Source: Methylococcaceae bacterium
GTDB lineage: Bacteria > Pseudomonadota > Gammaproteobacteria > Methylococcales > Methylomonadaceae
NCBI GenBank assembly: GCA_947505105.1
Contig: CANNKG010000001.1
Coordinates: forward strand, 1-64,000
DNA: 64,000 nt
Direction of reading: 5' to 3'
Shown here: positions 35,370 to 50,835 of the stretch, piece after piece
Layout of the letters: the number at the start of each line of letters is the position of its first letter
How positions within the stretch are numbered: position 1 is the first letter of the stretch
Program-made: the position numbers and the translations under genes
Notes under the pieces: model-generated
Database searches by the model: none
The model's input: the letters and a program-made list of their open reading frames with translations, nothing else
Told to the model about the DNA's origin: nothing

Positions 35370-38060
35370 TTATATGACCGATCTTTCCGAAACGCTAGTT
35401 ATTGATAACAAGGCTTTGATTTCAGGAATGCAAGAGCCGCAATTCGTTCCGGCTTTTAGGCATGCTCCTACCTCCTGGTAAGTTTTAAGACACTTTTCCT
35501 TTATTGCAGTCTTGATCGATTTGTCATCGACATTAAAACAAGCACAAACAATAGCACCAACCTCTGCTGAGCCAATAGGCGGTTCTCCGCTTAATAGGCT
35601 AATCCGCTCGAATTTATCGATTGTGGGCTTTGCAAATAAGCGACTGAGCCAACCCCGTTCTGGTAAGACATATTGCCTTGAAACCAATAAGATACTTTGC
35701 AGTTGTTGCTCCTGAAAACTAGCCGCCCGATAAATGCCCTGAGTAGCGTCTTCGTATTCTTGCCACTCTAGTTTTGGGCAGGATGCATCATCTAATTTTT
35801 CCTTGGCCCATATCGGCCAGTGTTCAGGCAAGGTTTCGCCTGCCAGTTCGTAACGGTAGCAATTTTCCCCCTTAACTTTAACCCAATAGTCGATATCATC
35901 AAAGGCAAGCTCTGCGCGCGTCAGCACAAATCCGTACCATAACGGTGAATAAGCGCTAATTGAAACCGGAGTTTGTTTGGCTTCAGGTTGTTTCGAGATC
36001 GGATCGACCACAGGATTGACCAGCGCGCCTACTCTGCCATGAGCTGCTAATTGAGACGTCCAATGCATTGGAATAAAAAGGCTGCCAATCTGTTGGCTCT
36101 CGGTTATGTGGACGCGCGCAAGCATGCTGCCCCAACGGCTTTGAATTCTCGCCAAGCTTTCGGGTAACAATCCTAAGCGCGAGGCATCCTCAGGATGGAT
36201 TTCGACGAAAGGTTCAGGTTTATGTTGATTTAATTTTGCCGCAAGCGCAGTACGGGTCATGGTATGCCATTGATCCCGGATACGCCCGGTATTCAAGGTC
36301 AACGGATAGGCCTGATCCGGCAAGTTAACCGGAGTACGAGGCGTTATGGCGATAAATTGCGCTTTACCTGAAGCGGTAAAAAATGTCGGCTTATCGAATA
36401 GGCGTTTACGGCCATCAGGATAATCCTGATTCACGGGCCATTGAATCGGTTGTAGTTTGTCATAGTCGGTTTGGCTAATATTGGCTAGGCCTGAAATATC
36501 AAAATCACGCACCCCATGTTCCAGATCGTTTTCGAAACCTGACAGAGCCGCATGTTCTCGAAAAATATCAGCTACTGATTGATAGGCAAACGCCTTGGCA
36601 AAACCCATCCGCTGGGCAATTTGGCTAATAATCCACCAATCAGGTTTCGCCATCCCAGCTGCGTTCAATAAAGCCCGTTGCCGCGAAATACGACGTTCCG
36701 AATTGGTGACGGTGCCGTCTTTTTCACTCCAGCCTTGGGCCGGCAGCAAAACATGTGCAAATGCGGAGGTGTCGGTCTGGGCGATACAATCGGACACCAC
36801 GACAAAATCGCAACGCTCGAGCGCCTGTTTTACTATATCGGCGTTGGGTAAACTCACCACCGGATTAGTCCCCATAATCCAAATCGCTTTTACTTTGCCG
36901 TCGTAAACCGCATCAAAGAGTTCTACCGCTGCGTAACCGGGTTTTTGAGCAATCCTGGTGCTACCCCAAAAACGCGCGACTCGCTCAATATCGGCAGAAT
37001 TACTAAAGTCCATATGCGCCGCCAATTGATTCGCAAGCCCCCCTACTTCGCGTCCCCCCATCGCATTGGGTTGCCCGGTCAACGAAAACGGCCCCATACC
37101 CGGCTGACCGATTTTCCCGGTCGCCAAATGGCAGTTTATGATGGCGTTGACTTTGTCGGTGCCTGACGATGACTGGTTAATGCCTTGACTAAAGAGACTC
37201 ATGACTTTTTCAGACTCGGCAAACCAAGCAAAGAAAAGCGCCAAGTCTTGTTCGGTTAATCGACACTGCTCAGCCAGCTGGGAAATCGTTGCGCTTGACT
37301 GGCTTGCTGCAGCAAGGGCGTCTGAAAAGCCTTCCGTAAACGAAGCAATATAGTCCTTAGCAATGGCGTCTTGCTGCTGCAAATACTGTAATAAACCGTT
37401 AAAAAGATGAGCATCAGTACCGGGTGCAATTGCCAAATGCAGATCGGCGATATCGCAGCTATTGGTTTTTCGGGGGTCGATCACCACTATTTTTAAAGCG
37501 GGGTTTGCGGTTTTTGCGGCACGAATTCGTTGAAAAATGACCGGATGACACCACGCGGCATTGGAGCCGATCAAGACAATCAGCTCGGCGTGTTCAAAAT
37601 CTTCATAGCACCCCGGCACGGTATCGCTGCCAAAGGCCCTTTTATGACCGGCGACCGTCGACGACATGCATAAGCGACTATTGGTGTCCATATTGCCGCC
37701 GCCGATAAAGCCCTTCATCAGCTTATTGGCAACGTAATAATCTTCGGTCAATAACTGCCCGGAGCCATAGAAGGCAACCGCTTCAGGGCCGAATTCCTCG
37801 ATAATGCCCGATAAGGTCTCGGCAACCTTATCGAGTGCTTCGTCCCACTCACAGTCTTTACCTAATATTTTGGGCTGCATCAGTCGACCGGTGAGTTCAA
37901 CAGTATCAGCCAACGCCGCCCCTTTAGAACAGAGTCGGCCAAAATTAGCTGGATGCTGCTTATCGCCTTGAATAAGCAGGCCGCTTTGTTGATTAACTTC
38001 GGCTTCGATACCACAACCCACACCACAGTATGGACAGGTTGTTTTTATAAGCTTGTGCAT
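35370..38060 (-). CDS. nasA: Assimilatory nitrate reductase catalytic subunit NasA
   Basis: The protein has 896 residues. The N-terminal [4Fe-4S] motif CPYCGVGCGIEAEV...GRLCSKG is followed by a molybdopterin oxidoreductase core (SRLCMSSTVAGH, IGSNAAWCHP, GINQSSSGTDK, TGQPNAMGGREVGG) and a molydopterin-dinucleotide-binding domain (TGRIRDQWHTMTRT). The C-terminal 60 residues form a BFD-type [2Fe-2S] domain (CACFNVD, GTNCGSC). This is the bacterial assimilatory enzyme that reduces nitrate to nitrite in the cytoplasm. The FAD oxidoreductase gene just upstream (23 bases) probably passes it electrons. A broken copy of its 3' end lies at 9419-9870. Confidence 0.95.
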   Translation of the reverse strand: MHKLIKTTCPYCGVGCGIEAEVNQQSGLLIQGDKQHPANFGRLCSKGAALADTVELTGRLMQPKILGKDCEWDEALDKVAETLSGIIEEFGPEAVAFYGSGQLLTEDYYVANKLMKGFIGGGNMDTNSRLCMSSTVAGHKRAFGSDTVPGCYEDFEHAELIVLIGSNAAWCHPVIFQRIRAAKTANPALKIVVIDPRKTNSCDIADLHLAIAPGTDAHLFNGLLQYLQQQDAIAKDYIASFTEGFSDALAAASQSSATISQLAEQCRLTEQDLALFFAWFAESEKVMSLFSQGINQSSSGTDKVNAIINCHLATGKIGQPGMGPFSLTGQPNAMGGREVGGLANQLAAHMDFSNSADIERVARFWGSTRIAQKPGYAAVELFDAVYDGKVKAIWIMGTNPVVSLPNADIVKQALERCDFVVVSDCIAQTDTSAFAHVLLPAQGWSEKDGTVTNSERRISRQRALLNAAGMAKPDWWIISQIAQRMGFAKAFAYQSVADIFREHAALSGFENDLEHGVRDFDISGLANISQTDYDKLQPIQWPVNQDYPDGRKRLFDKPTFFTASGKAQFIAITPRTPVNLPDQAYPLTLNTGRIRDQWHTMTRTALAAKLNQHKPEPFVEIHPEDASRLGLLPESLARIQSRWGSMLARVHITESQQIGSLFIPMHWTSQLAAHGRVGALVNPVVDPISKQPEAKQTPVSISAYSPLWYGFVLTRAELAFDDIDYWVKVKGENCYRYELAGETLPEHWPIWAKEKLDDASCPKLEWQEYEDATQGIYRAASFQEQQLQSILLVSRQYVLPERGWLSRLFAKPTIDKFERISLLSGEPPIGSAEVGAIVCACFNVDDKSIKTAIKEKCLKTYQEVGACLKAGTNCGSCIPEIKALLSITSVSERSVI

Positions 38061-38082: not shown

Positions 38083-39309
38083 CTAACCTAATGATCGCGT
38101 AAACGCTCGACCAAAAATCAAGCTGTTCCGAATGCCTGAAATATTCTGTTTATTTTCAAGTAACTCCTGATACCAGTGACCATCCTGGGTATCTCCATAC
38201 AAGACAGCGCCTTGCAGTTTATTGTCTTTGAGCAGAAGTTTTTTGTAATTGCCCATCGCAGGATCGGTAAAGCGAATCACCTCAGACTGTTGATCGCCTA
38301 AAAAATCGCCGATTGAAAACAGATTAATCCCGGTCACTTTCAGTTTGGTCGCAGTCGGAAGGGTTTTATATTCGGCAACCCCGTGGGCGCTGAGATGATT
38401 GGCGCAAACTTTAGCCTGTTCAAATAATGGCGCGACCAAACCAAAGGTTTGACCCCGATGTTGAATACATTCACCGACCGCATAGATACACGGATCATAA
38501 CTTTGTAGGGTATCGTTGACTACAATCCCCCGTTCGCAATAGAGTCCAGCCTGTTTCGCAAGAGAAATGTTCGGCTGCACGCCAACCGCAAAAACAAATA
38601 AATCGCAATCGACTTCACTGCCGTCATCAAAACTCACCGCCCGGATATGCTGAGCTTGATCACCGAGCAAGGCCTCAGTTTTAGCCGCCATTTTAAATTT
38701 CAAACCGCGTTTAACTAATTCTGCTTGCAGCATTTCACCGGCTTGTTTATCTATCTGGCGATTCAGCAAGACCTCATTATTGTGAATAACCCTGACCTCC
38801 ATACCTCTCAATAGCAGGCCATTTGCAGCTTCCAAGCCCAACAATCCACCCCCGAGCACCACCGCTTTGCGATGACTTTGACTATAGGCCAGCATGGTAT
38901 TGACATCGACGATATCTCGAAAACTAATTACGCCATCCAGATCGTTGCCTTGAATATCCGGAACCACAGGCCTTGAGCCGGTCGCGATCAGTAGGCGGTC
39001 ATATTCGGCGGTAGTTCCGTCCTGCGCATAGACTTTACATTGCCCACGCTCGATGCGCACGACCGCCTTATCGGGACCCGCATGGAGCGTAATCCCATGC
39101 TCCCGATACCATTTTCTATCATTGATGACGATGTCTTCGATAGTCTTTTCGCCGCAAAGCACCGCAGAGAGCATGATCCTGTTGTAATTGCCATAGGGTT
39201 CGGCCCCGAACACGGTAATCTCGTATTTATCGGGCGCTGAGAGTAATAACTCTTCAATCGTGCGCATACCCGCCATGCCGTTGCCGATCACTACTAATCT
39301 TTGTTTCAT
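38083..39309 (-). CDS. FAD/NAD(P)-dependent oxidoreductase, NasB/NirB N-terminal type
   Basis: The start at 39309 follows CAGGTGA and gives 408 residues beginning MKQRLVVIGNGMAGM. The FAD-binding GNGMAG, the NAD(P)-binding VVLGGGLLGLEAANGLLLRG and IYAVGECIQHRGQ are in order, and the C terminus is a nitrite-reductase-like dimerisation domain. It aligns by eye with the first half of NirB in the same operon and lacks any Fe-S cysteines. It is therefore the likely electron donor subunit for NasA, taking electrons from NAD(P)H. It lies between the phzF-like gene and nasA in one operon. Confidence 0.88.
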   Translation of the reverse strand: MKQRLVVIGNGMAGMRTIEELLLSAPDKYEITVFGAEPYGNYNRIMLSAVLCGEKTIEDIVINDRKWYREHGITLHAGPDKAVVRIERGQCKVYAQDGTTAEYDRLLIATGSRPVVPDIQGNDLDGVISFRDIVDVNTMLAYSQSHRKAVVLGGGLLGLEAANGLLLRGMEVRVIHNNEVLLNRQIDKQAGEMLQAELVKRGLKFKMAAKTEALLGDQAQHIRAVSFDDGSEVDCDLFVFAVGVQPNISLAKQAGLYCERGIVVNDTLQSYDPCIYAVGECIQHRGQTFGLVAPLFEQAKVCANHLSAHGVAEYKTLPTATKLKVTGINLFSIGDFLGDQQSEVIRFTDPAMGNYKKLLLKDNKLQGAVLYGDTQDGHWYQELLENKQNISGIRNSLIFGRAFTRSLG

Positions 39310-39339
39310 AAAATTCACCTGAAAATCATTCACCTTGAC

Positions 39340-40254: not shown

Positions 40255-40582
40255 GGCTGAGCCCCACAAGAATTCGGTTATCTTCAACCCGCACTGGATA
40301 GGTCGGAAGGCTAAGCGCTGCATCTTCGAAACAGCGTCCGGTAGTCAAGCTGTAATGCTGCTTGTATAGAGGTGAAGCGACCATCGGTTCACCGTTTAAA
40401 TCCCCGATCAAACCGCGCGACATCACATTGGCTGCGCCGATCGGATCGAAATTGCCGACGGCATAGACCTGTTGTAATTTCGGAATATAAAACAGTGCGA
40501 CTTGCACCTCTCCGACCAGTGCGCACACTCCGGAATCGGGTTGTAAGTCATCGACCGCGCAGACATCTATCCAGCTGTTCAT
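40247..40582 (-). CDS. nirD: Nitrite reductase small subunit NirD
   Basis: This Rieske-fold protein has 111 residues: VCALVGEVQVALFYIP, VYAVGNFDPIGAANVMSRG and SPLYKQHYSLTTGRC. As in other NirD proteins the cluster-binding Cys and His pairs are absent, so it binds no iron-sulfur cluster and serves as structural partner of NirB. It overlaps the end of nirB by four bases and the start of the phzF-like gene by eight, marking a tightly coupled run of three genes. Confidence 0.93.
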   Translation of the reverse strand: MNSWIDVCAVDDLQPDSGVCALVGEVQVALFYIPKLQQVYAVGNFDPIGAANVMSRGLIGDLNGEPMVASPLYKQHYSLTTGRCFEDAALSLPTYPVRVEDNRILVGLSHE

Positions 40583-43122
40583 GCTCCAGCCTCCTCAACT
40601 AAAGTAAAATGCCGCCGCTCATTTAGCTTGGCCGGACGAGGCTGGCCGCGTTCTTCAACAAACACAATATTCTGATCGGCTTGATCGCTATTGATAAAGT
40701 GGCGGAAGCGTTTTAAGCGCTGTTCATCTTGCAGAGTGGTTTGCCATTCGCATTGATAGCTGGCGATAATATGGCCCATTTGCTGTTCAAGCTCTGCACC
40801 GAGTCCCAACTTGTCGTCGATAACGACTGCTTTGAGATAATCCAGCCCGCCTTCCATGTTTTCCATCCAGACCGAGGTGCGTTGCAGACGTTCGGCGGTT
40901 CGTGCATAAAAAATCAAGACCCGGTCGATATATTTAATCAATGTGTCCTTGTCGAGATTGGTCGCAAACAAATCGGCATGACGAGGTTTCATACCGCCAT
41001 TGCCGCACACATAGAGATTCCAGCCGCCTTCGGTCGCGATAATCCCGATATCCTTGCTCTGGGCTTCCGCGCATTCGCGGGTACATCCCGACACTGCAAA
41101 TTTGATTTTATGCGGCGCACGCAGACCCTTGTAACGATTCTCCAATTCAATCGCCAGACCCGTACTATCATCAACGCCGTATCGGCACCACGTACTACCG
41201 ACGCATGATTTAACCGTGCGCAGCGATTTACCGTAAGCGTGACCGGTTTCAAACCCTACCGCAATTAGTTCTTGCCAGATTAACGGCAATTGTTCAACCC
41301 GCGCGCCGAATAAATCGACGCGCTGGCCGCCGGTGATTTTAGTGTAGAGTTGGTATTTTTTGGCGACCTGACCCAATACAATCAAGCCGTCCGGAGTAAT
41401 TTCGCCACCCGGCACGCGTGGCACGATTGAGTAAGTACCGTCTTTCTGCATATTGGCAAGGAAGGTGTCATTGGTATCCTGTAAACCAACGTGCTCTTGT
41501 TTGAGAATATAGTCGTTCCAATACGAGGCTAAAATCGATCCGACCGCCGGTTTACAAATTTCGCAGCCTAAACCGCGTCCGTGTTTGTCGAGTAATTCAT
41601 CAAAGGTTTTAATGCTCTCGACCCGGATCAGCGTATAAAGATCTTGGCGGGTGTGCGGAAAATGCTCGCAAATATCGGTATTAACTTCGACCCCGGCTTT
41701 TTTCAATTCGCAATCGAGCACCGATTTCAACAAGGCACCACAGCCACCGCAGCCGGTTCCGGCTTTGGTTTCGGTTTTCAAGGCCGAGACCGTGTTACAG
41801 CCGCCCGCAATCGCAGCGCAAACCTCGCCCTTGCTAACCGCGTAGCAAGAACAGATTTGCGCCGAATCCGGCAAGGCATCAGGCCCCAAACCAACCGATT
41901 GATCGGAACGCGGCGGTAAAATTAATGAATCGGGATTTTCTGGGAGTTCTATCCGGCTTAAACAGTATTGCAACAAGGTACTGTAGCCATTCGCATCACC
42001 GACCAGCACAGCACCCAACAGATATTTGTTGTCGTTACTGACTACCAGACGCTTATAAATTTCGGAACGTCCATCCTGATAGGTGTAAACCAGAGCACTC
42101 GGCGTTTTGGCATGCGCATCGCCGATGCTCGCCACATCAACGCCCATCAATTTCAATTTGGTGCTCATATCCGCACCCGTGAAAGCTTGTTGCTGATCCG
42201 ATAAATGCGCCACAACTGTTCGCGCCATACTATAACCCGGTGCGACCAGACCGAAAATTTGCCCGTTCCATAACGCGCATTCGCCAATCGCGTAAATATC
42301 GGGATCGTTAGTTTGGCAGGCATTGTTAATCACAATACCGCCGCGCTGACCCACTTCCAGATCAGAAGCTCGTGCGATATCATCACGCGGACGAATCCCG
42401 GCAGAAAACAGAATCAGGTCGGTTTCGAGCTCCTCGCCGTCGGTGAAACACATTTTATGTACGCACTGTTCACCGTCGATGATTTGGGCGGTATTTTTGC
42501 CGGTATGGACGGTCACGCCGAGCGCGCTGATTTTATGTTTCAACATCGCGCCGCCGCCTTCATCCAATTGCACCGCCATCAAGCGTGGCGCAAATTCGAC
42601 GACATGCGTTTCAAGGCCTAAGTCTTTCAAGGCCTTAGCGGCTTCAAGTCCGAGCAGTCCACCGCCGACCACGGTGCCGATTTTCGATTTTGCGGCGGCA
42701 GTTTGAATCGCCTCCAAATCTTCAATGGTCCGATACACCAGACATTGAGTGCGCTCATGCCCCGGCACCGGCGGTACAAACGGATAGGAGCCGGTCGCCA
42801 AGACGATTTTGTCGTAGTGGACGACCAAGCCTTGTGCCGAAATAACTTGTTTTTGAGCGCGATCAATCGTAACGGCCCGGTCGGACAGGTGGATCGTGAT
42901 GCCATGTTCTTCAAAAAAATTATCCGGAACCAAGGTCAAATCTTCAGCGGTTTTGCCGGTGAAATATTCGGATAAATGCACGCGGTCATAAGCAACACGC
43001 GGCTCTTCACAAAACGTGATAATGTCGTAATGGTCTTTTGCCGTGCTGGCGACCAATCCGGCCAAAAAATGCTGGCCCACCATGCCGTTGCCGATCACAA
43101 CTAAGGTTTGTTTAGGGCTCAT
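40579..43122 (-). CDS. nirB: NADH-dependent nitrite reductase large subunit NirB
   Basis: The protein has 847 residues, the usual size. The FAD/NADH part (about 1-400) contains VVIGNGMVGQHF and VVGGGLLGLEAAKAL. A BFD-type [2Fe-2S] domain follows (CSCYAVSKGE...GTGCGGCGALL). The ferredoxin-like half domain precedes a sulfite/nitrite reductase domain with the siroheme-[4Fe-4S] motif CVGSTWC...SGCTREC. It reduces nitrite to ammonium in the cytoplasm with NADH and pairs with NirD. It is preceded by a porin gene with a terminator-like hairpin between them, so nirB may have its own promoter or receive read-through from nrtABCD. Confidence 0.96.
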   Translation of the reverse strand: MSPKQTLVVIGNGMVGQHFLAGLVASTAKDHYDIITFCEEPRVAYDRVHLSEYFTGKTAEDLTLVPDNFFEEHGITIHLSDRAVTIDRAQKQVISAQGLVVHYDKIVLATGSYPFVPPVPGHERTQCLVYRTIEDLEAIQTAAAKSKIGTVVGGGLLGLEAAKALKDLGLETHVVEFAPRLMAVQLDEGGGAMLKHKISALGVTVHTGKNTAQIIDGEQCVHKMCFTDGEELETDLILFSAGIRPRDDIARASDLEVGQRGGIVINNACQTNDPDIYAIGECALWNGQIFGLVAPGYSMARTVVAHLSDQQQAFTGADMSTKLKLMGVDVASIGDAHAKTPSALVYTYQDGRSEIYKRLVVSNDNKYLLGAVLVGDANGYSTLLQYCLSRIELPENPDSLILPPRSDQSVGLGPDALPDSAQICSCYAVSKGEVCAAIAGGCNTVSALKTETKAGTGCGGCGALLKSVLDCELKKAGVEVNTDICEHFPHTRQDLYTLIRVESIKTFDELLDKHGRGLGCEICKPAVGSILASYWNDYILKQEHVGLQDTNDTFLANMQKDGTYSIVPRVPGGEITPDGLIVLGQVAKKYQLYTKITGGQRVDLFGARVEQLPLIWQELIAVGFETGHAYGKSLRTVKSCVGSTWCRYGVDDSTGLAIELENRYKGLRAPHKIKFAVSGCTRECAEAQSKDIGIIATEGGWNLYVCGNGGMKPRHADLFATNLDKDTLIKYIDRVLIFYARTAERLQRTSVWMENMEGGLDYLKAVVIDDKLGLGAELEQQMGHIIASYQCEWQTTLQDEQRLKRFRHFINSDQADQNIVFVEERGQPRPAKLNERRHFTLVEEAGA

Positions 43123-43159
43123 GAGTCACCTCGGATAAATTCATCTGCTAAAAGAGCTG

Positions 43160-43190
43160 AAAAGGGTGGGCAGAAAAGCCTTGCCTACCC
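43160..43190 (-). terminator. Intrinsic terminator between porin gene and nirB
   Basis: On the minus strand, GGGTAGGCA (43190-43182) pairs with TGCCCACCC (43172-43164), nine pairs with one G-U, and is followed at once by TTTTC. This is a fair intrinsic terminator just after the porin stop at 43208 and may reduce read-through into nirB. Confidence 0.6.
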
Positions 43191-43207
43191 TACATCTGCG
43201 TATTTCC

Positions 43208-44479
43208 TTAAAAGCTAACATTGCCCTGCAACCAGATTTTCTGGGTATCGGTGCCGAATTGATCGGCATCGTAATAGGCATATTTTGCTAAGACGCTGTA
43301 GTGTTTACCGAATTTCTTCAACACTTGCGCATTTATTTCCTGGCCGTAATGCAATCCGCCGGTATCGTCAGTAAAGTCGTGGTAAACCGCAGTCGCAATT
43401 AAGGTCCCTTGCATAAACATCCCGGTCACGCTGCCGAATACATCTCGGATACCGTCTTTTGGCGTGATCAGGAATAAATCGGCCCACCCTTGGAACGCAT
43501 GGTTGGTTCCGAGCGGAGTATCGAAGGTTTTATTAACCCCAAAACCATTCAGCTGTTCGACCGCACCCTGGAAGGTATAATTGAACGCCGTAAAACCACC
43601 CATAAAGTTAAAGCGATCCGCTTGGTATTGGGTAACCCCATGACCGTAATCCTGCTGATTACCCCATTCCGCGGTATAGACCAGTCCATAATCTTCGTTG
43701 ATTTTGTAGGTGTCACCCGGCTTTTGATAGTTAGTAAAGCGTAGCCCGTAGGTCTGGCTGGATTTTTCAAAATTCTCCTTTTCGGTATAATCCAGCCAGT
43801 AGCCGTAAGCTACGGCATTGCCGTAATCGCCGACCTTGTAACTAATATTTAGAATCGGCGCCTCAATATTTTCGGTCGTCGCGGTAATGCTCTGGATATT
43901 GCCGATATAGCCAACATTGACGACCAAGCCGAATAATTGCTGATTAGTGTGAGTAATCAGCACCGAGTCATAAGTCATTTCCATCTGCCGCCAGCCGACG
44001 TTACCTATAAAGCGGTCATCATCAAACTTGATGCGCTGCCGTCCTCCTTTCACGACGGTATCGGGAATGCCTTCATAGCTGATCCATAATTGATTTAATT
44101 CACTCCGGTCCGGGTCGGCAATCGTCGAATAGCCGGTATTGCCATTGCGGGTACTGTTGTAATCTTCCTGCATGGCAAGGTTACCTTCGTATTCGGCGTA
44201 ACCTTGCACGCCGTAAAACTTGGGCGATAACAAACCCAAACGCAAGCGCGCGGTATTGCCGTTGGCAGTATGTTGCTTGCCCTGATCCTGATTGACGTTT
44301 TCCCAACGGTAATTCAGGTCGAATTTAATCGCGCCGTTATTGCCGTAATGGTAAAAATTCAACGCATCTTCAACCGATTGCGTTACCGAAACGGCTGACG
44401 CCGGACCGCTAAACTGCAGGAATGACAGCAATGCCGCCGGAAGATAAATGCTAACGCTTTGGTGCTGTAGTTTTGGCAT
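43208..44479 (-). CDS. Alginate-export-type outer membrane porin in nitrate operon
   Basis: The start at 44479 (MPKLQHQSVSIYL) follows AGGGGGC and gives 423 residues with a signal peptide ending near GPASAVS. A longer frame exists but lacks such a site. The rest is beta-strand rich with alternating aromatic residues (FDLNYRWENVN, GYAEYEGNLAMQ, LWISYEG) and ends in VSF, the typical terminal Phe of outer-membrane barrels. It matches the alginate export family by pattern, yet no alginate genes are near. Between nrtCD and nirB, a role in passage of nitrate or nitrite across the outer membrane is plausible. Confidence 0.8.
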   Translation of the reverse strand: MPKLQHQSVSIYLPAALLSFLQFSGPASAVSVTQSVEDALNFYHYGNNGAIKFDLNYRWENVNQDQGKQHTANGNTARLRLGLLSPKFYGVQGYAEYEGNLAMQEDYNSTRNGNTGYSTIADPDRSELNQLWISYEGIPDTVVKGGRQRIKFDDDRFIGNVGWRQMEMTYDSVLITHTNQQLFGLVVNVGYIGNIQSITATTENIEAPILNISYKVGDYGNAVAYGYWLDYTEKENFEKSSQTYGLRFTNYQKPGDTYKINEDYGLVYTAEWGNQQDYGHGVTQYQADRFNFMGGFTAFNYTFQGAVEQLNGFGVNKTFDTPLGTNHAFQGWADLFLITPKDGIRDVFGSVTGMFMQGTLIATAVYHDFTDDTGGLHYGQEINAQVLKKFGKHYSVLAKYAYYDADQFGTDTQKIWLQGNVSF

Positions 44480-44621
44480 AAAGCCCCCTGTATAGAAATC
44501 GATAACGGCCATGCATCTGGCAGCCTGGCTAAGATTTAGGTAAGACCTTCCCCTAGGCGGGGTAAAGACCGCGCCTAAAAGTGATCGAATGATTAATTCA
44601 GAGTATATTAGTTGCTGAAGT

Positions 44622-46373
44622 TCAGTGAGTATGGTCGCACTCACTCAAAAAACTCAAGATGCTTTCACGGTATTGGTAATAATCTGGATGTTCAAGTAAT
44701 GCCTTACGCGTTCTGGGTCTGGGCAAATCGATTAGTTCGATTTTGCCGATTTTAGCATTCGGCCCATTGGTCATCATAACCACTCGATCCGCTAATAAAA
44801 TCGCCTCATCGACATCGTGGGTAACGACAATCGCTGTCACCTGGGTGCGCTGCCAGACTTCCATCAGCACTTCCTGCAATTCCCAACGCGTCAACGAATC
44901 TAACATCCCAAACGGTTCATCGAGTAACAGCAATTTCGGTGACAACGCAAAAGCTCTGGCAATACCAACCCGTTGCTTCATGCCGTTCGATAAATCAACT
45001 GCCTTCTTAGTTAAGGCGTCGCCTAAACCGACACGGGTTAGATAATAGGTAATAATTTCGTCGCGTTGTTTCGAGGTCGCATGCGGATAGACTTTTTCGA
45101 CCCCCAAGGCGACATTTTCATAGGCGGTCAGCCACGGAAACAAACTCGGTGCCTGAAACACCACCCCTTTGTCGGGACCTGCGCTATCGACTTCTCGGTT
45201 GTCGAGAATAATCCCGCCTTCCGAAACGCTGTTAAGACCGGCTGTCATCGATAACACCGTCGATTTGCCGCAGCCCGAATGGCCGATAATTGAGATGAAT
45301 TCGCCTTTCTTCATTTTCAAATCAAAGCCATCGACGACTTTTACCGTACCTTTGCCGTCCGAGGTCGGATAAATTTTCGATAACTGTGAAAATTCCAAAT
45401 AGCGCGGCGAACTGAGCTCCTTTTTAGCAGAATCCAGAGCGCTAGGCACTTGGTTCCAATCGTGTCGGGTATTCGGGCGCACATTAGGCAAGGTGCGTAG
45501 GTTGGTTTCGGATTGTTGAGTTTTCTCCATGCCGATTGCCATTAAATATTTTGTGATCGCGGCGCGCAGTTGTTTGAATTCCTGATTATGATTCAGCGCG
45601 GTCCGATCGCGCGGCCTCGGCAGATTCACCTTGAAATCTGGGCCAAAGGTGGCATTTGGACCCGGATTAAGCGGAATGACTCGGTCGGCCATGTAAATGG
45701 CTTCATCGACATCATTGGTAATCAGGATCACGGTTTTCTTTTCTTGTTCCCAAATCTGCAAAATCTCATCCTGCAAATTACCGCGCGTCAATGCATCCAA
45801 GGCACTTAAGGGTTCGTCGAGCAACAAAATATCGGGATTGGCCGCCAACGCCCGCGCCACATTAACGCGCTGGCGCATCCCGCCGGACAATTCAGCCGGC
45901 AATTTGTGCATCGCCGCACCTAAGTTCACCATACGCACATATTTTTCTGTGTGGGCTTTGCGTTGTTCGGCCGACCATTCCTTAAAGATAGCATCGACCG
46001 CCAAAGCGACGTTTTCAAACACGGTCAGCCACGGCATCAGCGAATAATTTTGAAACACCACGCCACGATCGGGTCCAGGCCCTGTAATCGCCTGACCTTG
46101 TTTTAAGACCTCGCCACTGTCGGGGCTGATTAAGCCCGCGATTGTTGAAATCAACGTGGTTTTGCCGCTGCCGGAAAAGCCGACAATTGCAATGAATTCG
46201 CCGGCTCTGATCGACAAATTAATATCGTTTAAAATCGAAACCCGGGCACTGCCTTCGCCGTAACTTTTGCACAGCTGTTTAAGTTCCACCAGCGGTAAAG
46301 CGACGTCGGTCATGGGAGTCCTTGCTTTTGAGTAATTATTAATCGCAATCACATTCTGTTGTAATGCTGACAT
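44622..46373 (-). CDS. Nitrate ABC transporter, two ATPase domains fused (NrtC/NrtD type)
   Basis: The protein has 583 residues with a strong AGGAG site before ATG 46373. Two complete ABC ATPase domains are arranged in tandem. The first (about 28-275) has GFSGSGKTT, LSGGMRQRVNVARAL, ILLLDEPLSALD and VILITNDVDEA. The second (about 320-580) has GHSGCGKST, LSNGMKQRVGIARAF, LLLLDEPFGMLD and VVTHDVDEA. Note Asn instead of His in the first switch loop. Cyanobacteria split these roles between NrtC and NrtD, and NrtC carries an extra substrate-binding-like domain that is missing here. It drives nitrate uptake with NrtB and NrtA encoded just upstream. Confidence 0.88.
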   Translation of the reverse strand: MSALQQNVIAINNYSKARTPMTDVALPLVELKQLCKSYGEGSARVSILNDINLSIRAGEFIAIVGFSGSGKTTLISTIAGLISPDSGEVLKQGQAITGPGPDRGVVFQNYSLMPWLTVFENVALAVDAIFKEWSAEQRKAHTEKYVRMVNLGAAMHKLPAELSGGMRQRVNVARALAANPDILLLDEPLSALDALTRGNLQDEILQIWEQEKKTVILITNDVDEAIYMADRVIPLNPGPNATFGPDFKVNLPRPRDRTALNHNQEFKQLRAAITKYLMAIGMEKTQQSETNLRTLPNVRPNTRHDWNQVPSALDSAKKELSSPRYLEFSQLSKIYPTSDGKGTVKVVDGFDLKMKKGEFISIIGHSGCGKSTVLSMTAGLNSVSEGGIILDNREVDSAGPDKGVVFQAPSLFPWLTAYENVALGVEKVYPHATSKQRDEIITYYLTRVGLGDALTKKAVDLSNGMKQRVGIARAFALSPKLLLLDEPFGMLDSLTRWELQEVLMEVWQRTQVTAIVVTHDVDEAILLADRVVMMTNGPNAKIGKIELIDLPRPRTRKALLEHPDYYQYRESILSFLSECDHTH

Positions 46374-46382
46374 GATTGGCTC

Positions 46383-47399
46383 CTAGAGAGTTCTTCCGAA
46401 GGCAAAGACGTTCTGGACCGATTGCATGATCCGATCCAGAATGAAGCCGATAATGCCGATTGTGAAAACTGCCACCATAATGCGTCCGAGCGAGTTGGAA
46501 CTGCCATTCTGAAATTCGTCCCAGACGAATTTACCTAAACCTGGATTTTGCGCGAGCATTTCGGCCGCAATTAACACCATCCAGCCCACCCCCAACGACA
46601 AGCGCATTCCAGTAAATATGTAAGGCAGGGCTGACGGTAAGACAATCTTTTTGATTTGGGTGCTCCAGTTCAAGCGCAACACTTTCGCGACATTGATCAG
46701 ATCTTTATCGATCGACGAAACGCCGACTGCGGTATTGATCAAAGTCGGCCATAATGAACACAGGGTCACGGTAATCGCCGAGGTGATAAAGGATTTTTCG
46801 AACCAAGAATCGTCAGTGGTGACATAAACCGCGCTGACCACCAAGGTGACAATCGGCAGCCATGCCAATGGCGATACCGGTTTGAAAATCTGAATCAAGG
46901 GATTAATCGCGGTATTGATCACTGGGCTCATGCCGCACAGCAACCCTAACGGCACCGCAATTAAGCTCGCGATCAGAAATCCAGCAAACACGGTGTACAG
47001 GCTGGTAAAAATCTTGTCGAGATAAGTCGCCTGACCGTTGTAGGGTCTGACTTTAATTTCAGCCTGCGGATTTTCGGCCAGTTTTTGGGCATTGCGTTCG
47101 GCCTGTTTTTGATAATATTCCTCAGCTTTCGCGCGCTCAGAAAAATGGTCTGCTAACAAACCGCCCGCTTCGTGCCATACCGCGCTGGGGCCTGGAATCG
47201 CGCCCAAACTGGTATTGATCTGACCTGCCGAGAAACCCCACACACCTAAGAACAATATAAAGGCAAAGATGGGGACACCCATAATCAGGAACAATTGGCG
47301 TAGTTGTTGGTTGACGTTGTCGCCCGCTGCAATTTTGACCAGTGGGACAAACCAAGTTAGACCAGTAATTGTTAAAAATTTGATCAGTGAGTTATACAT
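46383..47399 (-). CDS. nrtB: Nitrate ABC transporter permease NrtB
   Basis: The protein has 338 residues with six or so membrane helices. The permease signature loop is [21 protein letters not shown] followed by [18 protein letters not shown], typical of the nitrate/sulfonate/taurine family (NrtB, SsuC, TauC). Its N-terminal region has an extended periplasmic insertion (about 70-115) as in nitrate permeases. GAGGTG precedes the ATG. It forms the channel for nitrate together with the fused ATPase encoded nine bases downstream and NrtA upstream. Confidence 0.92.
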
Positions 47400-47442: not shown

Positions 47443-48843
47443 CTATTTTTCGACAACTTTGCCACCGGCAACGACTTGTTTGCCTTTCAATCCAATTGCA
47501 AATTTACTCAGATAATCATTCGGTTTAGTGGCATCAAAGGTAATACCGTCAATGAAATCAGCACTTGCGGGTTTAATACCGCTTTCGGTTTCCGCAGGAA
47601 AATCACTCGGCTTAGCCTTGCCTTCGGCAATTAACGCCTTTGCCGCTGTCATATAAATATCAGGTCGATAGACTTTTTTGGCGGTTTCCATATACCAGGC
47701 ATCAGGTTTGGCTTCGTTAATCTGTCCCCAACGACGCATTTGAGTCAAGCTCCAAATCGCATCGCTGTAGTAGGGATACGAACCATTGTGACGGAAAAAC
47801 ACGTTAAAATCCGGTAAGCTGCGTTTGTCGCCTTTTTCATATTCAAATGTACCCGACATACTGTTCGCCAATACTGCCGAATCCGCGCCGACATATTGCT
47901 TCTGCGACAACATCTCGACCGCTTCAGGTCGGTTTTTATTGCTTTCGGCATCGAGCCACATTGAGGCACGAATCAAGGCTTTAATCACTGCGATATGGGT
48001 TTTGGGATTTTTATCCGCCCATTCTTTATTCACCGCGAAAATCTTTTCAGCGCTGTTTTTCATCAATTCATAATCACTGATCACCGGTACGCCAATGCCT
48101 TTGAATACCGCTTGTTGATTCCAGGGTTCGCCCACGCAGTAACCAACAATAGTGCCAGAATCCATAGTTGCAGGCATTTGTGGCGGCGGTGTAACCGAGA
48201 GCATCGCTTCCGCGCCCAATTGACCAGAAGTATCGGCCGGCGGCTCGTAAAACCCTGGATTAATGCCGCCTGCTGCTAGCCAATAACGCAGTTTCATATT
48301 ATGGGTACCGACCGGAAAGGTCATCGCCATATTAAAGGGTTTGCCTTCCGCTTTATATTTTTCCAAGACCGGCTTCAAGGTGTCGGCTTTAATAGGATGC
48401 ACCGGTTTGCCATCCTGCATGGGAATCTGCGGTTTCATTTGCTTCCAGACGTCATTGGAAACCGTAATCGCATCGCCATTTAGTGTCAAGGTGAAAGCAC
48501 TGACAATATCGGCTTTCGTGCCATAACCAATCGCACCACCGAATGGCAAGGTAGCGAGCATGTGCGCGCCATCCAGTTCGCCACTGACCACCCGATCAAA
48601 TAAAACTTTCCAGTTCGCTTGCGCTTCAAGCTGGACCGATAAACCTTCTTCATCGAAATAGCCCTTTTCGAAGGCGACCGCTAACGGCGCCATATCGGTC
48701 AGTTTAATAAAGCCGAACTTTAAACTGTCTTTTTCGAGCTCAGCGGCGCTGAGTGAAATTGAACAGCTTAACGAGGTCACGGCGAGCGTTGCTGACAACA
48801 CTTTAGTCAATGTAGGGCGTAAGAATTTTGCGGCCTGTTTCAT
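47443..48843 (-). CDS. nrtA: Nitrate ABC transporter substrate-binding protein NrtA
   Basis: The protein has 466 residues with an N-terminal signal sequence (to about residue 34, ISLSAAE). The solute-binding core shows LKFGFIKLTDMAPLAVAFEKGYF, HMLATLPFGGAIG and VGYCVGEPWNQQAV, all diagnostic of the NrtA/CmpA branch that binds nitrate or bicarbonate. The nitrate enzymes encoded downstream make nitrate the likely ligand. It would be periplasmic. The gene is first in the operon and follows a leader with two ANTAR-type hairpins and a terminator, so its expression is under antitermination control. Confidence 0.93.
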   Translation of the reverse strand: MKQAAKFLRPTLTKVLSATLAVTSLSCSISLSAAELEKDSLKFGFIKLTDMAPLAVAFEKGYFDEEGLSVQLEAQANWKVLFDRVVSGELDGAHMLATLPFGGAIGYGTKADIVSAFTLTLNGDAITVSNDVWKQMKPQIPMQDGKPVHPIKADTLKPVLEKYKAEGKPFNMAMTFPVGTHNMKLRYWLAAGGINPGFYEPPADTSGQLGAEAMLSVTPPPQMPATMDSGTIVGYCVGEPWNQQAVFKGIGVPVISDYELMKNSAEKIFAVNKEWADKNPKTHIAVIKALIRASMWLDAESNKNRPEAVEMLSQKQYVGADSAVLANSMSGTFEYEKGDKRSLPDFNVFFRHNGSYPYYSDAIWSLTQMRRWGQINEAKPDAWYMETAKKVYRPDIYMTAAKALIAEGKAKPSDFPAETESGIKPASADFIDGITFDATKPNDYLSKFAIGLKGKQVVAGGKVVEK

Positions 48844-48874: not shown

Positions 48875-48931
48875 AAAAAAAAGGCGTCTCGAAACCGGCG
48901 GTCAAAAGACCATGCCGATTAAGTAGACGCC
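48875..48931 (-). terminator. Leader terminator upstream of nrtA
   Basis: On the minus strand GGCGTCT (48931-48925) pairs with AGACGCC (48889-48883). An inner hairpin is formed by GGC..GGTC-TTTT-GACC..GCC, and eight T residues follow (48882-48875). This is a classical intrinsic terminator 31 bases before the nrtA start codon. Read-through would require the ANTAR regulator acting on the hairpins just upstream. Confidence 0.88.
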
Positions 48932-48942
48932 GTTGTCAGTTT

Positions 48943-48983
48943 GCTCAACGTTGAGCTTAATGTTTGGCTCCAACGTTGGAGCC
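48943..48983 (-). promoter_or_regulatory. ANTAR-binding double hairpin in the nrtA leader RNA
   Basis: Two successive stem-loops appear on the minus strand: GGCTCC-AACGTT-GGAGCC (48983-48966) and GCTC-AACGTT-GAGC (48956-48943), with nine bases between. Both have the same six-base loop AACGUU, with A at position 1 and G at position 4 as known for ANTAR targets such as the nasF leader. An ANTAR regulator gene is divergent and adjacent, and a terminator follows 12 bases later. This fits transcription antitermination by nitrate-responsive binding. Confidence 0.88.
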
Positions 48984-48997
48984 GCTGTCTTAAACAA

Positions 48998-49014
48998 AGC
49001 AGTTACCGTGCCAT
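48998..49014 (-). promoter_or_regulatory. Sigma-54 promoter of the nrtA operon
   Basis: ATGGCACGGTAACTGCT on the minus strand has GG and GC separated by exactly ten bases, with TGGCACG at -24 and CTGCT at -12. It predicts a start near 48987, four bases before the first ANTAR hairpin. NtrC-type activation under nitrogen limitation is expected; a half-site TGCACC at 49165 is only suggestive. Confidence 0.75.
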
Positions 49015-49311
49015 AACTCCAAAAGCAATAACCAATAGAATAAAAGATATTTTTTTACAGTATGTTATAGAATTTTCCGATATTAATAATCTCTGACTGA
49101 ACGGCGATTTTGGGTGACCGTTCCCCGACAATTGAACAATATAAGTGCGACATTGTGGCGTGTTTGCACCAATTGAACACAAATACCCAAACGAGCAAAG
49201 AATTTACGCTTAGACGAATTTACCCCCATCGATTTTTTTTGATGGGTGTAATAGAAATCCTGCGTTATTTACCGCATACTTTAGTAACCTCCTTTACTCG
49301 CGCTTAGGGCC

Positions 49312-49881
49312 ATGCTGAACTCATTATTAGTTGAAGATGATATTAAGGCGACTCTTTTAGAAACTGCACTTAAAGCTCATCAGTTCAATATTCTAAAAAC
49401 CCACTACAGCGCAGCATTTTTAAAGTTCGTGCAAGAAACGCGGCCCGATCTGCTTATTTTTAATCTCCGCTCCCCTTCCGAAGCCTTGCTCGCTGATATA
49501 CAAACGCTTAACCAAAAGTCACCCTTACCGGTCATTATGTTCACTCTAGACGGTCGTCATGAAACGCTGCAAAAAGCGATGCAGGCCGAGATCAGCGCTT
49601 TTGTGGTCGACGGTCTCGACAGTCAGCGGATCAACAGTATTATCCAGATCGGTCTTGCCCGCTTTAAACAGCAGCAAATTCTTAAACATGCGCTGGATGA
49701 GGCACTTACGCAACTGGAAGACCGCAAACAAATCGACCGTGCCAAGGCTATTTTAATAAAAACCCAAAATTACACGGAAGACGTGGCTTACCATACCCTC
49801 AGAAAATTAGCGATGGATCGAAATATTACCCTGGGTGAAATGGCGAAAAACGTCATTGCTATGGCCGATCTACTGAAGTAA
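49312..49881 (+). CDS. ANTAR-domain antiterminator (NasT-like)
   Basis: The protein has 189 residues. An N-terminal receiver-like domain (about 1-120) keeps the acidic pair EDD (9-10) but has Asn at residue 51 (LLIFNLRSP) where the phosphorylated Asp should be, so it is probably a pseudo-receiver. Residues about 130-189 are an ANTAR RNA-binding domain (LEDRKQIDRAKAIL, then YHTLRKLAMDRNITL). Such proteins bind paired hexaloop hairpins and block terminators. The divergent nrtA leader contains exactly that target. NasT is normally held by the nitrate sensor NasS, which is not encoded here; the GAF protein downstream may serve instead. Confidence 0.9.
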   Translation: MLNSLLVEDDIKATLLETALKAHQFNILKTHYSAAFLKFVQETRPDLLIFNLRSPSEALLADIQTLNQKSPLPVIMFTLDGRHETLQKAMQAEISAFVVDGLDSQRINSIIQIGLARFKQQQILKHALDEALTQLEDRKQIDRAKAILIKTQNYTEDVAYHTLRKLAMDRNITLGEMAKNVIAMADLLK

Positions 49882-49911: not shown

Positions 49912-50835
49912 ATGAAAACCTTTATTAAAGTTATTGAAATCTGGATTCCTGACCAGGAACGCACCCAATTAGAATTTGGTTCCGGCTTATATGGCGCCTT
50001 CACCGAATTCAAGGCCGCCAGCACTCAGCAGACGTTTGCCTATGACGAGGGCTTACCCGGAAAGGCCTGGGCGCAGGGTCATCCGATTGTCTTAACGCGT
50101 TTTGAACATTCGTACTTTAAGCGCATTGATGAAGCTCAAAAAGCCGGTCTTACCTGTGGTATAGCCATTCCAATTTTTGCCGGTGAGTTTCTGCTCGCGG
50201 TCGTGGTGTTTTTATGCGGGGACGATGAGGAAAACGTTTGCGCTATCGAAGTCTGGTGCAACGATACGCTGAAGGGTGACGCACTCTCAGTCATGGATGG
50301 CTATTATGGAGCCCTAGAACCTTTTGAGCAGATTTCAAGAAAAATGTCCTTAGCTAAAGGCGATGGCATTCCTGGAATGGTATGGAAAACCGGCATGCCG
50401 ATGCTAGTGGAAGACATTAGCAAAATCAGCGGATCGACCCGATCTATCGACGCCCAAGCCGCCGGAATCACCACCGGTCTTGGAATTCCCATCATCAACC
50501 ATCATGGGAAGGTTTATATCATGACCTTTCTGTCCGCTAAGGCTGCTCCCATAGCCAAACGAATTCAAATTTGGATTCCTGATCCATTGGGCAAGCAGCT
50601 TATTTGTCAGCAAGGTTATAGTAAAAATAGTAACAATCTGGCGGAAATATTTGAAACCACGACGGTCAGAAAAGGTGAAGGCGCTTTGGGACGGGTTTGG
50701 TTGACGGGTCTCCCTGTAATCTCCGGTAGTCAAGTACGCGAGTATAATCCGGAACTTAGCGATCTAAGCAGTATGCTGGCAATTCCAGTGATTGAACAGG
50801 CCTCTTTAAAAGCGATAGTTACTTTTCTGTTTTAA
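49912..50835 (+). CDS. Triple-GAF-repeat protein, probable sensor
   Basis: The protein has 307 residues made of three tandem GAF-like units of about 100 residues. Each begins with a VIEIW-, AIEVW- or RIQIW-type strand, then contains a GLPGKAWAQG / GIPGMVWKTG / ALGRVWLTG segment, and ends with a GIAIPI-, GLGIPI- or MLAIPV-type strand. There is no output domain, signal peptide or membrane helix. The gene starts 30 bases after the ANTAR regulator gene, so co-expression is very likely. I infer that it senses a small molecule, perhaps nitrate or nitrite or redox state, and controls the ANTAR protein. No direct evidence for the ligand is visible. Confidence 0.75.
   Translation: MKTFIKVIEIWIPDQERTQLEFGSGLYGAFTEFKAASTQQTFAYDEGLPGKAWAQGHPIVLTRFEHSYFKRIDEAQKAGLTCGIAIPIFAGEFLLAVVVFLCGDDEENVCAIEVWCNDTLKGDALSVMDGYYGALEPFEQISRKMSLAKGDGIPGMVWKTGMPMLVEDISKISGSTRSIDAQAAGITTGLGIPIINHHGKVYIMTFLSAKAAPIAKRIQIWIPDPLGKQLICQQGYSKNSNNLAEIFETTTVRKGEGALGRVWLTGLPVISGSQVREYNPELSDLSSMLAIPVIEQASLKAIVTFLF

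Follow-up and report, generated by a model that had tools for sequence, protein, structure and literature searches.

A three-hexaloop NasT-type attenuator is predicted ahead of nrtA in a methanotroph, with a triple-GAF protein as candidate sensor

There is good reason to regard the nrtA leader in the window (the whole 64,000-nucleotide stretch of DNA analyzed) as a NasT-type transcription attenuator in which a triple-GAF protein, GAFx3, would stand in place of the sensor NasS. Anatomy, covariation and near-perfect co-occurrence with an ANTAR protein together make a good case for a nitrate antitermination switch. Judging from the sequence, binding of NasT and antitermination are almost certainly part of it, and nitrate is very likely the signal. 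The RNA switch is confirmed to be of a known kind, with a third hairpin that had been overlooked, and the departure from the known system likely lies on the sensor side, where GAFx3 would replace NasS.

Anatomy of the nrtA leader

Read on the minus strand from 49013 to 48875, the leader consists of a sigma-54 promoter, three hairpins (HP1, HP2 and HP3) and a terminator, as follows.

48999..49013, minus strand: sigma-54 promoter TGGCACGGTAACTGC (GG at 49012-49011, N10, GC at 49000-48999)
48966..48983, minus strand: hairpin HP1, GGCUCC-AACGUU-GGAGCC (two-sided changes at 5/6 pairs in relatives)
48943..48956, minus strand: hairpin HP2, GCUC-AACGUU-GAGC (two-sided changes at 3/4 pairs; 98.8% paired)
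48926..48937, minus strand: hairpin HP3, GAC-AACGGC-GUC, likely antiterminator (from its sequence, A1/G4 loop and terminator overlap)
48875..48931, minus strand: intrinsic terminator, 7-bp basal stem GGCGUCU/AGACGCC plus a further stem, then eight U

The promoter with GG-N10-GC spacing, the two hairpins with AACGUU loops obeying the A1/G4 rule (HP1 at 48983-48966, HP2 at 48956-48943) and the intrinsic terminator with eight T had been described in the original prediction, and each was recovered at these positions. The arms of the terminator stem span 48931-48883 (GGCGTCT...AGACGCC), the T run occupies 48882-48875 and the fold has an energy of -27.7 kcal/mol; a simple terminator scan passed over it because its loop is longer than eight bases. 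Transcription is predicted to start near 48987, a few bases ahead of HP1. NtrC-like matches with three mismatches lie 5' of the promoter at 49133-49149 and 49165-49181, 32 bp apart, and their frequency in the window is not above chance. By chance, 64 kb would be expected to contain 0.15 tandem pairs of A1/G4 hexaloops, both strands counted; the nrtA leader is the sole such site in the window.

A readable nitrate antitermination switch built of two hairpins had been proposed. The switch stands, given its anatomy, covariation and co-occurrence with NasT, but two hairpins are an incomplete account of it. According to the ANTAR model in the literature, terminator formation is prevented by the second or last hexaloop, which is located at the terminator's 5' base (PMC3369931). 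Here neither HP1 nor HP2 shares bases with the terminator, whereas bases 48931-48926 are common to the 3' half of HP3 and the 5' arm of the terminator, and the switch therefore has three A1/G4 hexaloops. Because of this overlap, HP3 is the likely antiterminator.

The leader folds to -50 kcal/mol as HP1, HP2 and terminator (z = -5.1; 0/200 shuffles equal this), compared with -36.9 kcal/mol when HP3 and open hexaloops are imposed; the HP3 stem has 3 bp here (-1.9 kcal/mol). The RNA thus forms the terminator by default, and a protein would be required to keep HP3 in place. In the RNAfold prediction an A-U pair closes the AACGUU loops of this leader; since relatives often have C or A at position 6, it is the open hexaloop that is conserved.

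The genes on either side are the following.

47443..48843, minus strand: nrtA, periplasmic nitrate-binding protein (PF13379, E = 2.6e-88; ATG at 48843)
40579..47399, minus strand: rest of the controlled cluster, delimited by layout and made up of the next four genes
46383-47399, minus strand: nrtB
44622-46373, minus strand: nrtCD
43208-44644, minus strand: porin
40579-43122, minus strand: nirB
38083-39333, minus strand: nasB-like reductase partner (assigned by eye from sequence)
35370-38060, minus strand: nasA-like nitrate reductase (assigned by eye from sequence)
49312..49881, plus strand: nasT-like regulator, pseudo-receiver plus ANTAR, 189 aa (PF00072 and PF03861 above cut-off)
49912..50835, plus strand: triple-GAF protein GAFx3, candidate NasT partner, 307 aa (GAF_2 PF13185, E = 5.4e-18, 66 bits)

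From this layout we infer that the nrtA-nirB cluster is co-transcribed.

NasT and its candidate partner

The gene transcribed divergently from nrtA had been said to encode an ANTAR protein, and 49312-49881 does encode a receiver (REC) domain followed by ANTAR. That this regulator is a separate pseudo-receiver protein and not NasR holds in so far as it is REC-ANTAR rather than NIT-ANTAR; the contrast carries no novelty, as such a protein is the NasT of the NasS-NasT system, known from Azotobacter, Pseudomonas and Paracoccus (PMC3795266, PMC5424462, PMC7261876). By its sequence the regulator is NasT, and it is the sole ANTAR protein of the source genome. Its predicted structure comprises REC, a long coiled coil and a three-helix ANTAR domain, in which the AK positions, the AYH motif and the Tyr are retained. 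The phospho-acceptor Asp is replaced by Asn51. Almost every NasT of the GAF-linked and NarK-linked clades has Asn at this site, but the NasS-linked NasT of locus L069 has Asp. Because the receiver is without the phosphorylated Asp, NasT presumably answers to a partner protein instead of a kinase.

The known partner, NasS, is an NrtA-like sensor without signal peptide, usually adjoining nasT. No NasS was found in the source genome, which is rated 100% complete: a PF13379 search returned NrtA and one distant protein at 58 bits, so that the sole strong NMT1_2 protein is NrtA itself. Directly 3' of nasT, beyond the end of the originally described region at 49881, lies the gene for GAFx3, which is the leading candidate for the sensor role that NasS would otherwise fill. 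The predicted structure of GAFx3 has three GAF-like repeats (pLDDT 85.6, pTM 0.88), and mean column identity is 78% across 34 sequences. PDB and Foldseek comparison returned tandem GAF domains, plant MYC-type factors, NifA-like GAF domains and NreA, none of them specific. Against the NreA NCBIfam model it scores 24.2 bits (cut-off 175), and in fold it resembles NreA no more closely than it does many GAF domains.

Relatives of GAFx3 occur in Methylococcales methanotrophs such as Methylovulum, Methylobacter, Methyloglobulus, Crenothrix and others, and on this basis a methanotroph of this kind is the most likely origin of the window. The gap between nasT and the GAFx3 gene is 11-54 bp in 79/96 loci, the other 17 being separate or cut off (two overlapping locus sets, with some species counted twice). 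NasT trees place the GAF-adjacent set in one clade (100/98), as do GAFx3 trees the nasT-associated copies (support 100/97 to 100/98), apart from the nif-linked paralogue and the Bradyrhizobium and Thiogranum copies. The adjacency is strong evidence for a shared function, yet it represents one evolutionary event, and the genomes are not independent. In a joint AlphaFold model of NasT and GAFx3, run as one chain read through the nasT stop, pTM was 0.60 with no confident interface. Searches of the open-access literature turned up no GAF protein described as a partner of NasT.

In the mechanism we propose, RNA from the sigma-54 promoter would present three hexaloop hairpins in a row within its first 60 bases. 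With no signal, HP3 would yield to the far more stable terminator and transcription would end ahead of nrtA. Free NasT would bind the A1/G4 loops, using HP1 and HP2 as recruitment sites, and would hold HP3, such that the terminator is blocked and the nrt-nir genes are read. GAFx3 would bind NasT without nitrate and release it upon binding nitrate (or nitrite). The balance tips slightly toward GAFx3 as the partner controlling NasT; that it binds nitrate itself, as its gene context suggests, is close to an even question and leans a little toward the doubtful. More tentative still is the full proposal that GAFx3 is a soluble, intracellular nitrate sensor, unrelated to NasS, NIT or NarX, that holds the NasT pseudo-receiver, with the family having exchanged NasS, a NarK-type transporter and a GAF protein on the same leader.

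A somewhat doubtful but serious alternative keeps the attenuator as proposed and lets another factor control NasT, be it a NarK or NrtA transporter, a NasS in an assembly gap or another soluble protein, with GAFx3 doing a different job such as 2-oxoglutarate, redox or NO sensing for general nitrogen metabolism; we weigh these as one. Among the 65 NasT genomes of the family, 39 have GAFx3, 22 have a NarK-type gene upstream and 4, all of genus g14, have NasS (PF13379 matches adjoining nasT, L069). For the set of 22, 11 loci were read and the rest assigned from NasT relatedness and the absence of NasS and GAFx3. In the loci read (L064 6193-8251, L065-L068, L070, L071, L075-L077, L079), the NarK-family transporter gene lies just 5' of nasT, separated by a few bases or overlapping it. 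Because NasT is present in these 22 genomes without NasS and GAFx3, a sensor of another kind exists there, and the transporter could be that sensor. In one genome (G110), NarK-nasT coexists with a distant GAFx3 located well away from nas genes. The alternative also draws support from Methylobacter, in which GAFx3 does not adjoin nasT, and from GAFx3 relatives outside nas loci in Bradyrhizobium, Thiogranum and a nif-like cluster. Against it stand the complete genome without a detectable NasS and the restriction of the nasT-associated GAFx3 clade to genomes with NasT (39/39), where its place behind nasT is kept across about eleven genera, even away from nrt (in L196 and L198 the pair has no nas gene beside it and nrt lies elsewhere). 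Outside the family, NasS adjoins nasT in about 16/27 loci of the class and GAFx3 in none.

The paralogue of the nif-like cluster (L153 2552-9514, L154, L157) shares 52-54% identity with GAFx3 and is flanked by a glutaredoxin-BolA gene on one side and a flavodoxin gene on the other; with a NifM-like PPIase and a ClpX-like protein nearby, the cluster looks like nif-type.

Relation to known nitrate and ANTAR systems

The closest likeness is to NasS-NasT of Paracoccus, Azotobacter, Pseudomonas and Bradyrhizobium (PMC3795266, PMC5424462, PMC6759348), which shares the receiver-ANTAR NasT, the nitrate assimilation target and leader hairpins with a terminator. It differs in that NasS was not found here, GAFx3 lies beside nasT and the phospho-acceptor Asp of NasT is Asn. 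The nasF leader of Klebsiella oxytoca (PMC7496416) likewise has A1/G4 hexaloops with the last at the terminator base; however, NasR is a single NIT-ANTAR protein acting on two hexaloops, in contrast to REC-ANTAR and three hexaloops here. The dual hexaloop antiterminator of EutV (PMC3369931, PMC8934654) shares the A1/G4 rule, the mutually exclusive terminator and the succession of recruitment and antitermination hairpins, whereas the present leader has an additional hairpin, serves another pathway and involves no kinase-phosphorylated receiver. Both hallmarks of ANTAR dual hexaloops are present, namely the A1/G4 loops and a last hexaloop, HP3, exclusive with the terminator. A three-hexaloop leader could help in working out how a single ANTAR dimer engages several loops one after another, a question also posed by EutV.

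Among Rfam families, P11 RNA (RF00625) and narK RNA (RF03032) are also nitrate-related leaders, and the P11 consensus lends itself to a reading with three A1/G4 hexaloops, the last of them within the terminator. At curated thresholds, neither the window nor any of nine relatives gave an Rfam match; the window scores 26.7 bits for P11 (cut-off 70) and 24.2 for narK RNA (cut-off 43.2). The architectural resemblance to these RNAs, the former from Pseudomonas, is what would favor viewing the leader as an ordinary NasS-NasT or NasR target with nothing unusual about it. We consider this improbable, as NasR needs a NIT-ANTAR protein where the genome's sole ANTAR protein is REC-ANTAR, and NasS needs a second NrtA-like protein, none of which was found.

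For GAFx3, the nearest functional parallel is NreA, the nitrate-binding GAF protein of Staphylococcus, which also accompanies a nitrate regulator and inhibits NreB in the absence of nitrate (PMC8139620). NreA, unlike GAFx3, has one GAF domain and acts on a histidine kinase, and the sequence similarity is very weak. In methanotrophs, the RNA target and NasT appear to stay constant, and the partner that would signal nitrate appears to change. Should GAFx3 prove to be the sensor, bacteria whose nitrate use is tied to methane removal would have a new way of perceiving nitrate, and GAFx3 would be a bacterial case beside the GAF-based sensing of NreA and plant NLP proteins.

Conservation of the leader and co-occurrence with NasT

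Sixty distinct methanotroph leaders were gathered by two features, the HP3 core and a run of T downstream of it, with HP1 and HP2 left out of the selection, and were aligned without structure before loop positions were counted. All show the same layout. The promoter elements GGCA and TGC are unchanged in 60/60, though the leaders were chosen partly by the same motif. Across the three loops, A1 and G4 are kept in 51-60 of 60 relatives: the HP1 loop has A1 in 51/60 and G4 in 54/60, and the HP2 loop has A1 in 57/60 and G4 in 59/59, with A, C or T at position 3 and T, C or G at position 5.

Covariation was assessed on 20 diverse leaders, in which 9/16 pairs changed on both sides (22 two-sided changes; 0/500 shuffles as high) and pairing reached 97%, compared with 33-52% in slid controls. 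The basal stem of the terminator is 100% paired in these 20 relatives; the HP3 stem and most of this basal stem are invariant, placing their pairing beyond the reach of covariation.

These data also bear on the reading of the AACGTT palindromes as operator DNA bound by a dimeric repressor or activator. HP1 and HP2 are perfectly palindromic over 18 and 14 bp, and the window alone cannot separate a DNA from an RNA reading, but this reading is largely refuted by the non-palindromic loops of the 60 relatives (AATGCT, AACGGC, ACAGCT), whose stems covary while A1/G4 stay; with the elements also lying downstream of the predicted start and ahead of the terminator, it is very improbable.

Two kinds of variant leader were seen. 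HP2 is duplicated in L104 (around 9192), giving four hexaloops in a row. HP1 is swapped in L129, L130 and L131 for another stem (GGCTAGT...GCTAGC) with no clear A1/G4 loop, HP2 and HP3 being kept, and these leaders may show which hairpins are essential.

A covariance model was built on 20 leaders including that of nrtA, whose own score of 117.9 bits is thus high by construction; the next site in the source genome scores 21.1, and the search gave no second convincing leader. The 12-base HP3 core GACAANGGCGTC has two further exact matches in the genome, both outside any such leader. A single leader fits with nirB sitting in the same cluster; in relatives with nirB apart from nrt, nirB has its own leader (L187, L193, L195).

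Across 121 genomes of the family, counted by hand with thresholds of E <= 1e-10 for the leader and >90 bits for NasT, the leader is present in 67 and NasT in 65. Both occur in 64 genomes and neither in 53, leaving four mismatches: G004, which is 77% complete, has NasT without the leader, and G040, G067 and G105 have the leader without NasT.

In Methylobacter relatives (L072 11431-13355 and 14879-17466; L073), NasT-type leaders are also found before an EAL/YkuI_C gene and an MCP chemoreceptor gene, which suggests that NasT may control c-di-GMP turnover and chemotaxis in these bacteria.
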